Shown here one piece after another: positions 22,011 to 36,664 of a stretch of 42,566 nt of DNA. The stretch lies in NCBI GenBank assembly GCA_021777105.1, contig JAIQZQ010000010.1, positions 1 through 42,566 of the forward strand. Reading direction: 5' to 3'. Below the pieces are notes generated by a model that searched no databases, was not told the origin of the DNA, and saw only the letters and a program-made list of their open reading frames with translations. This DNA comes from Candidatus Anammoxibacter sp. (lineage in GTDB: Bacteria; Planctomycetota; Brocadiia; Brocadiales; Anammoxibacteraceae). Every line of letters starts with the position of its first letter. Positions within the stretch are counted from its first letter, which is position 1. The position numbers and the translations under genes are program-made.

Positions 22011-22097
22011 AATAGCCCTTACAGAGCTAAAATTCTTATACATTCCATACCCAGGGCGTTGCCCTGGGCTATAATAAATCAGCCCTTCGGGCTTTAA
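22011..22097 (-). repeat. Three-hairpin dispersed repeat, copy 2 (inverted)
   Basis: Inverse of 14371-14461. Hairpins at 22014-22028, 22050-22068 (CCCAGGGC-GTT-GCCCTGGG) and 22081-22093 (AGCCC-TTC-GGGCT). The middle and outer stems carry paired base changes relative to copy 1 that preserve pairing. The third stem has a G-T wobble when read on the minus strand. Confidence 0.7.
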
Positions 22098-31855: not shown

Positions 31856-31953
31856 GGGAATGGATGGGTTCCGGTGGACCTGACGGATTTCAAATCCGAT
31901 TTGCCGCGTCCAAAAACGCGGCAGGTGGGTTCGACTCCCACACGTTCCCGCCA
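31856..31953 (+). tRNA. selC: tRNA-Sec (UCA anticodon)
   Basis: A 95-nt body plus encoded CCA, matching the unusual selenocysteine tRNA layout. The acceptor begins GGGAATG and ends CGTTCCC. The 6-bp D stem is GGGTTC/GGACCT with only a four-base loop. The anticodon stem-loop is CGGA-TTTCAAA-TCCG with anticodon TCA. A long variable arm forms an 8-bp stem, TGCCGCGT / ACGCGGCA. The T arm is GTGGG-TTCGACT-CCCAC. The eighth acceptor pair is a mismatch. The TCA anticodon, short D loop and extra-long variable arm exclude tRNA-Ser and tRNA-Leu. It implies that the organism decodes UGA as selenocysteine; selA, selB and selD are not in the window. Confidence 0.93.
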
Positions 31954-32008: not shown

Positions 32009-33007
32009 ATGACATATAATTACACAAATTTAGCTCCGGCAAATATTGTAACCGCCGATGTTCATGATTTAGCCCTTTCAGTTTTAGAAGGGCTTTCAGG
32101 AAAACCTAAAAAATTAAATTCCGCTTATTTTTACGATCATGTTGGCAGCGGAATTTTTCAACAAATAACTGAGCTGAGCGAATATTATTTAACAAATTGC
32201 GAATTTGAAATTTTAAGGAACCAGAAAGAGTCGATTTCCAATATTTTTAACGACCGCCCTTTTAACCTCATAGAATTAGGCGCCGGCGACGGCAGAAAAA
32301 CATTGACCTTGCTTGAAGAGTTTATAAAACAGGGCCAGGATTTTAAATATATTCCTATTGATATATCAGCTAAGGCTATGGAATCGCTTTTTGAAAGATT
32401 AAAAGATAATCTTGATGGACATGATTTAGCTGTGGAAGGTTTAGTCGGCGACTATTTTGACGGCATTAACGCTTGCTCTCAACAAACCGACAGGCAAAAT
32501 TTTGTGCTTTTTATAGGCTCAAGCATCGGCAACTTTAACCATGCCGAGGCCGAGAAATTTCTGCGTCATCTCTGGTATAGTTTAAATCCGGGCGACTATG
32601 TCTTGATAGGTTTTGATCTTAAGAAAGATCTCAATATCCTACATGCCGCGTATAATGATTCAAAAGGAGTGACAAGCGAATTCAATCTTAATCTTCTAAC
32701 TCGGTTAAACGAAACGCTTGACGCTAATTTTAACCGCGAAACCTTCCATCATCAGGGCATATATAATGTGCAATTAGGGGCGATGGAGAGCTATCTTATA
32801 AGCAAGGTGAAACAGACGGTTAAAGTCGGCGCTCTGGATAAAGAGTTTCACTTTAAACCATGGGAAGGCATACATACGGAATATTCATACAAATATACCC
32901 AATACGAGATTGAAATGATCGCAAAGGACACAGGCTACGAAGTAGTCAACCACCTCTTTGACTCCAAACATTACTTTGTTGACTCTGTATGGAAGGTTCG
33001 TAAATAA
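32009..33007 (+). CDS. EgtD-like histidine N-alpha-methyltransferase
   Basis: 332 residues of the EgtD/DUF2260 family. Seen: the N-terminal KKLNSAYFYDHVGSGIFQQI and TELSEYYLTNCEFEIL, then SAM motif ELGAGDGRKTLTLLE (about 92), PIDIS, IGSSIGNFNHAEAEKFL, PGDYVLIGFDLKKD and the C-terminal substrate region GAMESYLIS with YTQYEIEMIAKDTGY. EgtD trimethylates histidine to hercynine, the first step to ergothioneine or selenoneine. No egtB or sulfur-transfer partner is adjacent, so the end product is unresolved. The E-x-S/Y substrate residues cannot be checked confidently by eye. Confidence 0.82.
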   Translation: MTYNYTNLAPANIVTADVHDLALSVLEGLSGKPKKLNSAYFYDHVGSGIFQQITELSEYYLTNCEFEILRNQKESISNIFNDRPFNLIELGAGDGRKTLTLLEEFIKQGQDFKYIPIDISAKAMESLFERLKDNLDGHDLAVEGLVGDYFDGINACSQQTDRQNFVLFIGSSIGNFNHAEAEKFLRHLWYSLNPGDYVLIGFDLKKDLNILHAAYNDSKGVTSEFNLNLLTRLNETLDANFNRETFHHQGIYNVQLGAMESYLISKVKQTVKVGALDKEFHFKPWEGIHTEYSYKYTQYEIEMIAKDTGYEVVNHLFDSKHYFVDSVWKVRK

Positions 33008-33155
33008 GATTTTAAAAACAGATGACGGAGGCTAAATAAGTTATTTTGACTTAAATTTTGCGATTCTTGGATGATATAGAGCTCTAACTTCTTTAAATAA
33101 TGGTAATTACGAAGAATTAAACATTCACCCAATAAGTGAAAAGCAATTACAACCG

Positions 33156-33229
33156 TGTCGTTTCGAACGGAGAGAGAAATCTTATAACACTTACGGGTTT
33201 AAAGATTTCTCCCGATGGTCGAAATGACA
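33156..33229. repeat. Imperfect inverted repeat (dispersed-repeat type)
   Basis: The left arm TGTCGTTTCGAACGGAGAGA-GAAATCTT (33156-33183) pairs imperfectly with the right arm AAGATTTCTCCCGATGGTCG-AAATGACA (33202-33229), with an 18-base loop. It resembles the TCATTTCGACC...GAGAAATCTT palindromes seen between genes in many environmental genomes (from memory). The rest of the 33008-33350 gap contains no gene; an overlapping 66-codon frame is an artefact of the repeat. Confidence 0.55.
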
Positions 33230-33350
33230 AATCGTGTTACAGAATCGCTCAGTTTAGGTTTGAAATACTTCGCCGGCTCTTGCCCTTATCCTGTAAAACC
33301 TTTCTTTTTGCTTTTCCGCCAATTGCTTACCCCTAAATGCTTTTTACATT

Positions 33351-34109
33351 TTATCCCCTTCTATTGATCTTGCCGTATGATCTCTTTGTTCTTACAAGCC
33401 TTGAGTTATTGCTTTTTTTTCGTATACCGGTAATTCTTGTTTCTAACGAAGCAAACTTGTGCATGTTTTTACCTTTAAAAGCATCTTCAATCTCCGGCAT
33501 TGCAGAATCCACAATAAAAGACCGTGTTTTGTCTGGGTATTTTTTTACATATTTTGACAATATTGTGTCTACGCTATTTCCTGGAGGATAAACTTTATAA
33601 CATTTTTTGCTTCTCTTATTGGAAGATGAGATGTCCACAAACTCAAACAGTTCAGGGCACACTTCCGAGAACTCCTTTGCCGCGTTTACATCCTTGACCG
33701 TGGCGACAAAAAGATTGTTTTTAACAATGTTTTTCATTAGTCCATTTTTAAAACCGGCGGCGTCATATAGAGCGAATTCGGAGACATCGTATAAAACACA
33801 AAGCGTATTAAAAAAATCAGTACTCTCTCCTTGTTGTTCGCCGCTATATAACGCGCCGTTTTTATATTCATATATTTCACTCTTAATCTCGGAAATGTCT
33901 TTATCAAGGCACGGAATCTTTACAACGTTATTAAAGGAATGCCCGCTAACAAAATCAACACATGCGTCGCGAACCGTTATTGAGCCGCCGGCCAGTATTA
34001 TATGCTTTTTGAATCTCTTCTTTTTCTCAATATTGTCTCTAAACTTTACAACTTTCGGGTAGTTCGATACTATTTTGAACAAGGGGGTAGTTCCAGGTGT
34101 ATTAATCAT
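33351..34109 (-). CDS. Degenerate sigma-54-activator-like AAA+ protein under riboswitch control
   Basis: 252 residues with no obvious family at first sight. Laid beside the intact activator at 26942 it matches in order. LFKIVSNYPKVVKFRDNIEK (10-29) aligns with its FSGIIGNSSKMIRVFDTVK; ILAGGSITVRDACVDFV (38-54) with LITGESGVGKELIAHSI; NGALYSGE (84-91) with KGAFTGAL; VLYDVSEFALYDAAG (105-119) with LFLDELGDMCLSTQA; LFVATVKDVNAAKEF (133-147) with IIAATNKNLEELVKK. The spacing is similar (41 to 85 to 108 against 186 to 233 to 257). The Walker A Gly-Lys is gone, GAFTGA is not preserved, no receiver or FIS domain exists, and the end is a basic tail. It is unlikely to hydrolyse ATP and may be a decoy or adaptor. 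AAAGGAAG precedes ATG 34107-34109. Two riboswitches lie in its leader. Confidence 0.55.
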   Translation of the reverse strand: MINTPGTTPLFKIVSNYPKVVKFRDNIEKKKRFKKHIILAGGSITVRDACVDFVSGHSFNNVVKIPCLDKDISEIKSEIYEYKNGALYSGEQQGESTDFFNTLCVLYDVSEFALYDAAGFKNGLMKNIVKNNLFVATVKDVNAAKEFSEVCPELFEFVDISSSNKRSKKCYKVYPPGNSVDTILSKYVKKYPDKTRSFIVDSAMPEIEDAFKGKNMHKFASLETRITGIRKKSNNSRLVRTKRSYGKINRRG

Positions 34110-34186
34110 TTTTCTTCCTTTCTATTTTAAGTTAATGAAAGATGATTACATTAATTCACCATGCCCCAGGTTTGTAATTGCGCAAT

Positions 34187-34220
34187 AAAAAAACCCAAGC
34201 GTGATTTAACACGATTGGGT
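34187..34220 (-). terminator. Terminator of the proximal riboswitch
   Basis: Minus-strand hairpin ACCCAA-T-CGTG / CACG-C-TTGGGT with a TTAAAT loop (34193-34220), followed by a run of seven T. It shares the distal terminator's structure, with T-A in place of C-G in the inner stem. Confidence 0.85.
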
Positions 34221-34240
34221 CTTTTGTGCAGTTGCGTAAT

Positions 34241-34311
34241 TTCGGCAACCTGGCAATCTTTTTAAAAAGACCCATGGCTTTGCGTCTCAACCTCGCGATT
34301 GATTTGCCTTT
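34241..34311 (-). promoter_or_regulatory. Proximal cyclic-di-GMP-I (GEMM) riboswitch aptamer
   Basis: Minus-strand order: AAAGGCAAAT, then a perfect CAATC-GCGA-GGTTG hairpin with a GNRA tetraloop (34288-34301), then the GEMM core GACGCAAAGCC (34276-34286), then ATGGGTCTTTTTAAAAAGAT as a variable stem, then CCAGGTTGCCG (34243-34253). This is the class I cyclic-di-GMP aptamer pattern, with GCAAA plus the P1b hairpin, ACGCAAAGCC and a 3' GGTTGCC strand. A downstream GCAAC can pair with GTTGC of the 3' strand, a plausible switch into the terminator-permissive fold. Confidence 0.85.
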
Positions 34312-34400
34312 ATCATTAAAATATACATATTACGTATAACAATCACAGCCTGCTATACGCATTTGTCATTCAGTTATTTAGACGCTCCTTTAAAATATTC

Positions 34401-34438
34401 AAAAAAAAAGACCCAAGCGCGATTTGACGCGATTGGGT
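34401..34438 (-). terminator. Terminator of the distal riboswitch
   Basis: Minus-strand hairpin ACCCAA-T-CGCG / CGCG-C-TTGGGT with loop TCAAAT (34411-34438), flanked by AAG/CTT and followed by nine T (34401-34409 on the plus strand as A). A strong intrinsic terminator. Confidence 0.88.
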
Positions 34439-34459
34439 CTTCTTGTACAGTTGCGTAAT

Positions 34460-34530
34460 TTCGGCAACCTGGCAATCTTTTTAAAAAGACCCATGGCTTT
34501 GCGTCTCAACCTCGCGATTGATTTGCTTTT
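34460..34530 (-). promoter_or_regulatory. Distal cyclic-di-GMP-I (GEMM) riboswitch aptamer
   Basis: Nearly identical to the proximal copy: AAAAGCAAAT, CAATC-GCGA-GGTTG (34507-34520), GACGCAAAGCC (34495-34505), the same variable stem and CCAGGTTGCCG (34462-34472). The clearest difference in the aptamer is A instead of G just before GCAAA. With the copy at 34241 it forms a tandem pair, each aptamer having its own terminator. Confidence 0.85.
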
Positions 34531-34545
34531 AACAATGCGGTCAAT

Positions 34546-34574
34546 ATACTATTTAAAATCAGAGTAAAAATCAA
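34546..34574 (-). promoter_or_regulatory. Candidate promoter of the tandem-riboswitch transcript
   Basis: On the minus strand TTGATT (34569-34574), 17-bp spacer, TAGTAT (34546-34551). It places the start near 34539, about nine bases before the distal aptamer, as expected for a riboswitch leader of about 430 nt. Confidence 0.55.
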
Positions 34575-34687
34575 GATAAAATTTAACATTAAACATGTTC
34601 TCCTATAAGCAGGCATATTATAATTTTGAATTTAACTAAACCTATAGCTTCTTAAAGTCTTCACTATACGGCATGGCGATATCGTGG

Positions 34688-34693
34688 TATAAT
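34688..34693 (+). promoter_or_regulatory. TATAAT box upstream of the GH13 gene
   Basis: TATAAT at 34688-34693 within GTGGTATAATTTTTT. No good -35 hexamer lies 16-18 bp upstream. It is the only -10 candidate for the rightward phosphorylase-pyk unit. Confidence 0.4.
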
Positions 34694-34771
34694 TTTTTTT
34701 ATTTTTAAATTACCACAAAACTGTTTAAAATTATAAAATATTTTTTATTTTTGGTTTAGCAAGGTTTGAAG

Positions 34772-36664
34772 ATGGAAGCAAATACAACTAACTGTGAAGT
34801 CTTTAAAATGGGCAGGAGACGCTATGAAGGTTACAAATTCCCTCATAGCAAAACGCCTGATAAACAAAAGGCGGATATAAACATTCCCTCCTGTGTGGAA
34901 AAAAGGATCCTGAATAAATTAATCCTTTTATATGGTGAACGTTCCGCAAAAAAGACCTTGTATGAGCTTTTGAACATTTGCAAGGCCTATTGCGCATATA
35001 AAACAGACGATATGATTAGGGTGGAAAAGACGTTCGACCCTAAAAACAGGTTTACAGAGGAAGATGTTATTCTTATAACTTACGGCGATTTGATTTATGA
35101 GGAAGGAGAGCCGCCCCTTACCACTCTTTCAACATTTTTCGGCAAACGTAAAGAAACGACCATTAACACTATTCATATTCTTCCATTTTTCCCATACTCT
35201 TCAGATAGGGGATTTTCAGTTATCGATTTTAAAACAGTTGATCCCAAGCTTGGCTCTTGGGAAAATATTGAGGATTTGGAGTCTCGTTACAAGCTTATGT
35301 TCGACGGCGTGATAAATCATGTGTCGTCACAAAGCGAGTGGTTTCAGGAATTTTTATTGGGAAATCCTTATTTTGAGAACTTTTTCATAAGTTACAATTC
35401 TATGGACGATCTGCCGGCTTATGAACGGGGCATTATATTTCGTCCGCGCACGTCGGATATTTTAACAAAGTTTGAAACAGCCAAAGGCGACAGATATGTC
35501 TGGACGACTTTCTCTGAGGATCAGATTGATCTTAATTATAAAGAGCCCCAGGTCTTGTTGAATGTAATCGAAGCGCTTTTGTTTTACGTTCGAAAAGGGG
35601 CTGACATAATAAGGCTTGACGCAGTGACATATCTATGGGCAAACCCGGGCACCACATGCGCTAACCTTGAGCAAACGCATGTAATTGTGCGGTTGTTAAA
35701 TGATGTGCTCGAGCTTGTTGCGCCTCATGTGGCCATTCTTACGGAATCAAACATACCTCATAACGACAACTTAACATATTTCGGCGCCGGCTCGGACGAG
35801 GCGCATATGATATACAACTTTGCGCTGCCGCCTCTTACGCTATACGCGTTTTACAAACAGGACGCTACGCAACTTTCTGAATGGGCTGCGACCCTGGACA
35901 ATGTGTCGGATACTACCACGTTCTTTAATTTTTTAGACTCTCATGATGGGATCGGGTTTATGTCGGTTAAGGACATCTTGCCTAAAGAGGAGATTGATTT
36001 TATTATTCAAAATGCGACTGAACGCGGCGGATTAATTTCGTACAAACTTGACAAGGACGGGGTTAACTCGCCGTATGAGATAAATATAACCTGGTTTAGC
36101 GCGCTTAACAGAGATGACGGGTCTGAAAGCGTCGACTTTCAGGTCAAGCGCTTTATTGCGTCGCGGGCAGTGGCGTTGGTTATCCAGGGTGTGCCCGGCA
36201 TTTATATACACAGTTTTTTTGGCACTAAAAATGACAAAGACGCTGTTATAAAAACCGAGTCAAACAGGGAGATTAATCGCGCGATTATTAATTACGAATC
36301 GCTTTTAAACGAATTAAACGACCCTGATACGCTAACATCTAAAATAAGCCGCAAATTGTACGACCTTATCGCAATAAGGACAAGGCAACCCGCTTTTCAT
36401 CCCAACGCTTGCCAGCATATTTTATACATTTCACCAAGGATTTTTGCGGTTTTAAGAATGATTCCTGCGGATGATGATCGTATTTTATCTTTAATTAACA
36501 TATCTGACAAGATTGAAAACGCGGTTATATCTTTAAAAATGCTTAAAACAGATAAAAAGGAGTGGCGGGACATAATTAGTAAAAGAAAATTTAAATTTGA
36601 GAATGAAAATCTGGAGATTAAATTAGAGCCTTATGACGTGTTATGGCTAAAAGGGAAACAATGA
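34772..36664 (+). CDS. GH13_18 sugar phosphorylase (glucosylglycerate/sucrose phosphorylase-like)
   Basis: 630 residues from ATG 34772 (AAGG seven bases upstream; a TTG two codons earlier is too close to it). Alpha-amylase-type barrel with the sucrose-phosphorylase signature ILPFFPYSSDRGFSVIDF, region II IIRLDAVTYLW with the predicted nucleophile Asp283, acid/base Glu325 in LTESNIPHND, and FLDSHDGIG. GH13 subfamily 18 enzymes phosphorolyse sucrose, sucrose-6-phosphate or glucosylglycerate to glucose-1-phosphate. The unusually long N-terminal part (about 100 residues before the barrel) is seen in the glucosylglycerate phosphorylase-like branch, so that is my first guess; the substrate is not decidable here. 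It overlaps pyk by 22 bp, linking it to glycolytic carbon flow. Confidence 0.85.
   Translation: MEANTTNCEVFKMGRRRYEGYKFPHSKTPDKQKADINIPSCVEKRILNKLILLYGERSAKKTLYELLNICKAYCAYKTDDMIRVEKTFDPKNRFTEEDVILITYGDLIYEEGEPPLTTLSTFFGKRKETTINTIHILPFFPYSSDRGFSVIDFKTVDPKLGSWENIEDLESRYKLMFDGVINHVSSQSEWFQEFLLGNPYFENFFISYNSMDDLPAYERGIIFRPRTSDILTKFETAKGDRYVWTTFSEDQIDLNYKEPQVLLNVIEALLFYVRKGADIIRLDAVTYLWANPGTTCANLEQTHVIVRLLNDVLELVAPHVAILTESNIPHNDNLTYFGAGSDEAHMIYNFALPPLTLYAFYKQDATQLSEWAATLDNVSDTTTFFNFLDSHDGIGFMSVKDILPKEEIDFIIQNATERGGLISYKLDKDGVNSPYEINITWFSALNRDDGSESVDFQVKRFIASRAVALVIQGVPGIYIHSFFGTKNDKDAVIKTESNREINRAIINYESLLNELNDPDTLTSKISRKLYDLIAIRTRQPAFHPNACQHILYISPRIFAVLRMIPADDDRILSLINISDKIENAVISLKMLKTDKKEWRDIISKRKFKFENENLEIKLEPYDVLWLKGKQ

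Follow-up and report, generated by a model that had tools for sequence, protein, structure and literature searches.

Tandem riboswitches of the c-di-GMP-I (GEMM-I) class are common and described: a survey of tandem riboswitches places 347 doublets and 12 triplets under pseudo-cooperative systems (PMC9481103), and in the Bc3-5 triple tandem of Bacillus c-di-GMP-I aptamers stand in series (PMC4759541). Pairs of GEMM-Ib riboswitches, which bind c-AMP-GMP (3',3'-cGAMP), occur in G. sulfurreducens (PMC6456294). Two aptamers with separate expression platforms on one gene can also form a two-input gate, and Table 2 of the survey gives NOR for SAM-I/AdoCbl and NOT A AND B for AdoCbl/C-AMP-GMP (PMC9481103). 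A pair of c-di-GMP-I and c-AMP-GMP aptamers is absent from that logic-gate table, and among the papers listed by the literature searches no title or opening line of an abstract describes a tandem of these two types.

Here we analyze a tandem leader in a 42,566-nucleotide stretch (the window) of the genome of Candidatus Anammoxibacter sp. As in the c-di-GMP-I doublets, triplets and Bc3-5, several aptamers stand serially before one gene, and as in the two-input gates two aptamers with separate platforms act on it. Since tandems of this class are common and described, the layout is ordinary. The window tandem stands out in two respects: its copies carry unlike ligand-selecting bases, and a protein of predicted AAA+ fold is its target. 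What would be new is the pocket-base difference between copies, together with predicted OFF wiring, on a known kind of tandem.

Results

Two aptamers, each with its own terminator, stand in series before one gene

In a cmscan search at gathering thresholds, the minus strand of the window gave two aptamers of the c-di-GMP-I clan, matched at 34459-34536 and 34240-34317. Aptamer 1 (upstream; 34460..34537; A at position 20) scores 69.9 bits with RF01051 and 61.9 bits (E 2.2e-12) with RF03167, the c-di-GMP-I-GGC model; aptamer 2 (downstream; 34241..34318; G at position 20) scores 74.5 and 69.8 bits (E 1.2e-14), respectively. Both copies exceed the gathering cut-offs of both models (35 bits for RF01051, 59 bits for RF03167), and RF01051 gives more bits in each case. 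Clan competition lists the RF03167 match, but the GGC variant was dropped: the base immediately following P2, a G in the RF03167 consensus, is A in both copies (34500 and 34281), and for this reason both are classed as RF01051. The sequence-only reading, which saw two GEMM aptamers in series on the minus strand before a single gene, is borne out by these two significant matches and the one open reading frame downstream; the aptamer motifs that it quoted are present in both copies. Further Rfam matches near the leader (nqrA-Marinomonas, NsiR1 twice, NrrF and RUF1) scored under their gathering thresholds and were dropped.

The three-way junction of P1, P2 and P3 has no broken pair in any of this genome's three cassettes (the two described here and one on another contig). 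Among 14 aptamers of the order, a set that takes in these three, 98.9% of cells are paired and 12 of 20 pairs are changed on both sides. When the partner is slid by one column, pairing in this set falls to 40-46% – a control that favors the drawn structure, because that structure comes from the Rfam consensus. Folding z-scores for aptamer plus terminator are -3.27 and -3.31.

Behind aptamer 1 a hairpin (34440-34409; -19.0 kcal/mol) runs into a T-run (34409-34401), and behind aptamer 2 a second hairpin (34221-34192; -14.3 kcal/mol) runs into another (34193-34187). Together with the predicted antiterminator partners (34434-34444 and 34216-34225), these intrinsic terminators span 34401..34444 and 34187..34225 of the minus strand. 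The built-in terminator scan of positions 33000-36000 called none, probably because the stems carry an internal mismatch. Complete terminators after each aptamer had been claimed from the sequence, and the folds agree; with aptamers and separate terminators in series, transcription must indeed pass two checks.

The cassettes are near-identical from aptamer to terminator, and their flanks are dissimilar. The 78-nt aptamers differ at four bases, all of them in P1 and J1/2, and are identical from P2 onward; the stem of terminator 2 carries a compensatory change of C-G to U-A relative to terminator 1. The first T-run lies 82 nt from aptamer 2. A scan for sigma-70-like promoters gave no minus-strand site near either cassette (9 sites found in all, against 8.5 expected by chance).

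Several other features of the window were recorded. Divergent from the tandem leader and upstream of it is an alpha-amylase-family gene (PF00128, E 1.2e-21; 34766-36664, plus strand). A selenocysteine tRNA gene (31856-31949, plus strand) lies just before a gene for a histidine-specific methyltransferase (PF10017; 32009-33007), and an Acido-Lenti-1 RNA (22050-22094, plus strand) scores 42.4 bits against a cut-off of 37.

The copies differ at the ligand-selecting base

Positions 20, 47 and 92 are given in what we take to be Vc2 numbering. Base 20 of aptamer 1 (34527, minus strand) is A, the c-AMP-GMP-type signature; it was found by pattern match and, in alignments, immediately precedes P2 on the 5' side. 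In aptamer 2 the aligned base (34308, minus strand) is G, the c-di-GMP-type signature, a difference that the sequence-only reading had passed over. Equivalents of A47 and C92 are kept in both aligned copies. In the solved cGAMP riboswitch the ligand-contacting A14 directly precedes P2 (C15-G40) (PMC6274999), and A likewise stands directly before P2 in the c-AMP-GMP riboswitches of Geobacter and Desulfobacca, as it does in aptamer 1. According to the survey, one ligand-contacting base separates the two classes, being G in c-di-GMP aptamers and A in c-AMP-GMP aptamers, and the A form of a Desulfobacca acetoxidans aptamer is reported there to bind c-AMP-GMP markedly better and c-di-GMP perhaps slightly less well (PMC9481103); on our reading, the base circled there is the base 20 compared here. 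From the pocket bases we accordingly predict that copy 1 senses both ligands or leans toward cGAMP and that copy 2 senses c-di-GMP; sensing of cGAMP by aptamer 1 in the cell is weakly suggested. The difference at base 20 could be due to chance, because only four substitutions separate the aptamers and any of them could fall there.

Throughout the order, RF01051 has matches in 44 of 59 genomes (649 in total, by our own sum). GEMM-I aptamers are numerous in five genomes of one genus (g7: G018, G029, G021, G053 and G048), with 42 to 56 aptamers each in about 4 Mb. When 62 genomes of the order were searched with an A-form pattern, 26 matches came back, four of which were judged to be A20 aptamers. 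Two of the four belong to this genome (copy 1 and its third aptamer), and G029 and G046 hold one each. Among the others, five are G-form aptamers picked up by way of an upstream word, and 17 are apparently chance matches. Four is a lower bound, because the pattern needs exact flanks. A20 seems to be rare in the order. A sample of 37 aptamers from 32 sources has 34 with G and three with A, one of the three (L065) having been chosen for its base 20. In this genome, two of the three aptamers carry A20.

The second of these is the third GEMM-I aptamer of the genome (L003/L006; G000:C105:51554-51630, minus strand), which has the same antiterminator and terminator layout and stands before a Cys-rich open reading frame of ~89 aa with no Pfam family. 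The sample does not support the idea that mixed A/G tandems characterize the order, given that its other same-strand pairs are all G/G (4 of 4: L007, L018 and L025, within 400 bases, and L030, with a gap of 455).

Outside the order, a scan of genome contigs from other lineages with the A-form pattern returned at least 120 stretches, of which 80 loci were listed and all used. A covariance search of these 80 loci yielded 103 aptamers and, among the loci listed, 15 same-strand pairs no more than 400 bases apart. Twelve of the pairs contain an A form, and these – at loci picked by their A form – are A/G in seven cases, A/C in three and A/A in two. Since seven of the 12 are A/G, mixed pairs are not unique to the window. 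Record titles place the seven A20/G20 tandems (L091, L095, L115, L118, L123, L136 and L147) in Anaerolineales/Anaerolineaceae, Clostridia and other Bacillota. Some have weak partners: the first aptamer of L115 scores 42.0 bits, and the first of L123 scores 42.7 bits and has G at position 92. A terminator-like hairpin within 130 nt follows six of their 14 aptamers (the first of L091, L123, L136 and L147; the second of L095 and L118), and with terminators so patchy the same device is not established at those loci.

Further base combinations were seen in these searches. C stands at base 20 in L070, L079, L090 and L123, the last three with an A20 partner copy. A20 combined with U at the C92 position is found in L065 (G029:C1:3564248), L093 and L108, aptamers of 36 to 48 bits that could be decayed.

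The folds predict OFF switches

In each window cassette the P3 5' strand, UGGGUCUUUU, is complementary to the terminator's 5' arm in the same cassette; the pairing segment of that arm is AAAAGACCCA in copy 2, and in copy 1 it is AAGAAGACCCA, where the duplex includes one G-U pair. In minimum free energy (MFE) folds of partial transcripts, the predicted antiterminator strand of aptamer 1 (34483..34493, minus strand) pairs with 34434-34444, and that of aptamer 2 (34265..34274, minus strand) pairs with 34216-34225. As the transcript grows, this antiterminator is seen from the point at which the 5' arm has been made, in all three cassettes of the genome. Forcing the aptamer with only the 5' arm out costs 12.9, 13.7 and 18.3 kcal/mol in the three cassettes, in a folding model that leaves out tertiary contacts and ligand.

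A second predicted hairpin, GGUUGC...GCAACU, occupies the 3' strand of P3 and the junction in many unliganded folds. In copy 1 (34449..34469, minus strand) this anti-aptamer hairpin appears in MFE folds at 96-102 and 132-148 nt, with a variant hairpin in its place at 108-126 nt; its MFE counterpart in copy 2 lies at 34230..34250 of the minus strand, and in the third cassette the hairpin has a different sequence, UUGCCA/UGGUAA. After synthesis of the 3' arm, the MFE structure contains the terminator whether the aptamer is formed or not. Because the full-length MFE structure thus has the terminator even without ligand, switching must be kinetic.

These folds suggest how the cassette would work. 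Without ligand, the antiterminator would form as soon as the terminator 5' arm is made, and the hairpin taking the aptamer's 3' strand would help it to form; with ligand, P3 would be held, the antiterminator could not form and the terminator would fold. As ligand would hold P3, termination is favored, and we infer from the modeled structures that each switch would be an OFF switch in the cell.

The pairing was compared with that of other cassettes in the order sample, in which only 13 of 37 aptamers have a terminator-like hairpin within 200 nt. The P3:terminator pairing is the best duplex in six of the 13 (this genome's three cassettes plus L013, L015 and L031 from other genomes of the order), and in five of the 13 the cassette's own pairing is weaker than the mean of swapped arms. 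For this genome's three cassettes, 2, 3 and 5 of 12 swapped arms pair at least as well, in a control with little resolving power, since the word AAGACCC recurs in several arms.

The target is a predicted AAA+-like protein

The gene behind the tandem (33351..34109, minus strand; AAAGGAAG precedes its ATG) is one open reading frame of 252 aa. Its product has no Pfam or NCBIfam family and does not resemble a cyclase, pilin or chitin-binding protein, as the sequence-only reading had suggested. That reading called it undescribed, which holds for the absence of a family and less so for the fold: an AAA+ fold is predicted for residues about 10-162, followed by a helical C-terminal part. A single-sequence homologue search returned only the protein itself. 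A profile search returned five family proteins, three of them from this genome, with P0004 the closest homologue of the target. The family occurs in two of 62 genomes of the order – its own and G001, which has a distant protein of 344 aa – and a family-profile scan of genome contigs found no relative.

The Walker A loop (GxxxxGK[ST]) is missing in all five family members; in its place GG(S/G)...TxRDAC was read by eye. The target differs in this loop from the AAA+ domain of RFC-like clamp loader small subunits, with which it has about 13% identity. Sigma54_activ_2 (PF14532) falls below its cut-off in two of the five members (E up to 1; the best match has E 0.0077 and 16.9 bits against a cut-off of 25) and does not match the window protein, and a sequence search of solved structures with the target gave weak matches only (best E 0.035). 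Both paralogues of the target adjoin KaiB-domain genes and lie near two-component genes (L037, L038, L039 and L040). The target would be a non-hydrolysing AAA+-like partner protein, from a family that appears linked to KaiB and two-component genes.

No cGAMP synthase was detected in the genome

If aptamer 1 reads cGAMP, a source of the molecule might be expected. Hypr cyclases, the GGDEF enzymes found in Geobacter alongside GEMM-Ib, are marked by a signature Ser (PMC6456294). The genome assembly (93.6% complete, 5.5% contamination) encodes 18 GGDEF domains, of which 15 have Asp (14 as GHxxGD and one as GRAAGD); one of the remainder has Asn and a degenerate motif, and two lack the motif. At the place within the GGDEF motif that we take to be that of the Hypr Ser, none of the 18 has Ser. 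SMODS, the only CD-NTase family searched, has no match in the genome. Unlike Geobacter, then, which holds Hypr cyclases, this genome gave none, and the absence of a detected cGAMP synthase is the main result against a two-signal reading.

Discussion

The reading that we prefer is that of serial OFF cassettes, each of which would stop transcription on binding its cyclic dinucleotide: the first switch would answer to cGAMP and c-di-GMP, the second to c-di-GMP. Base 20 being A in the first copy and G in the second, we would expect the gene to be expressed only at low levels of both signals. We give this reading, in which the first cassette likely reads cGAMP plus c-di-GMP and the second c-di-GMP, an even chance; our views on which ligands bind, on their switching the gene off in the cell and on what the product does all derive from sequence and folds. 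The sharper version – a NOR gate made by riboswitch duplication and a change of one pocket base, in which the first copy reads cGAMP, the second c-di-GMP, and either silences an AAA+-like regulator – we regard as rather unlikely. The sequence-only reading had offered two-input logic or a steeper response; the first is favored by the difference between copies at the ligand-selecting base and opposed by the failure to find a cGAMP synthase. A two-signal gate stays the minority reading until cGAMP is shown in the lineage.

As the search for a cGAMP synthase came up empty, a steeper response to a single ligand, c-di-GMP, is almost as likely. Both switches would then sense only c-di-GMP, with A20 lowering the affinity of the first copy to give a steeper or two-threshold OFF response, much like the described pseudo-cooperative tandems; the 15 canonical-Asp GGDEF domains, the 347 doublets and 12 triplets of the survey (PMC9481103) and the predominance of G20 in the order sample (34 of 37) are all consistent with this, and we consider it a serious possibility, if somewhat short of an even one. 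What speaks against it is the concentration of A20 in this genome, in two of three aptamers, yet in at least four within 62 genomes as against 649 RF01051 matches in 59. It is also conceivable, though improbable, that the first copy is a decaying duplicate, or that transcription from a promoter lying between the cassettes leaves the second copy as the one switch that truly controls the gene. The dissimilar flanks outside the cassettes, the 82 nt between the first T-run and aptamer 2 (room enough for a promoter) and the three further aptamer differences, which like base 20 fall in P1 and J1/2, would fit such a history. Decay is hard to reconcile with aptamers identical from P2 onward and a compensatory change that keeps the terminator stem; the promoter scan places no minus-strand site nearby, but its total is no higher than chance.

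The direction of the switches, on which the sequence-only reading was silent, has also to be weighed. The GEMM-Ib switches of Geobacter raise expression, whereas those of the window are predicted to be OFF; in G. sulfurreducens, transcription behind GEMM-Ib riboswitches falls when gacA is deleted (PMC6456294), and by analogy ligand binding might here prevent termination. We strongly doubt this: the terminator hairpin begins 19 nt past the aptamer and has no strand in common with it, and the mutually exclusive pairing seen in the folds is that of an antiterminator, which aptamer formation destroys.

Returning to the serial OFF cassettes with two signals, this reading, if true, points to cGAMP signalling in a genome in which no known synthase was found, perhaps with an unknown cyclase as its source. 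Should the NOR version hold, mixed A20/G20 tandems would form an unlisted and widespread class of cyclic-dinucleotide gate, extending over Chloroflexota, Bacillota and anammox-related bacteria. Sharing one leader and with no aptamer difference from P2 onward, the two copies also offer a natural experiment on base 20 and the choice of ligand. If the two-signal reading is true, one duplication and a few base changes would be enough to make, out of a switch for one signal, a gate in which a common scaffold serves to compare two second messengers.
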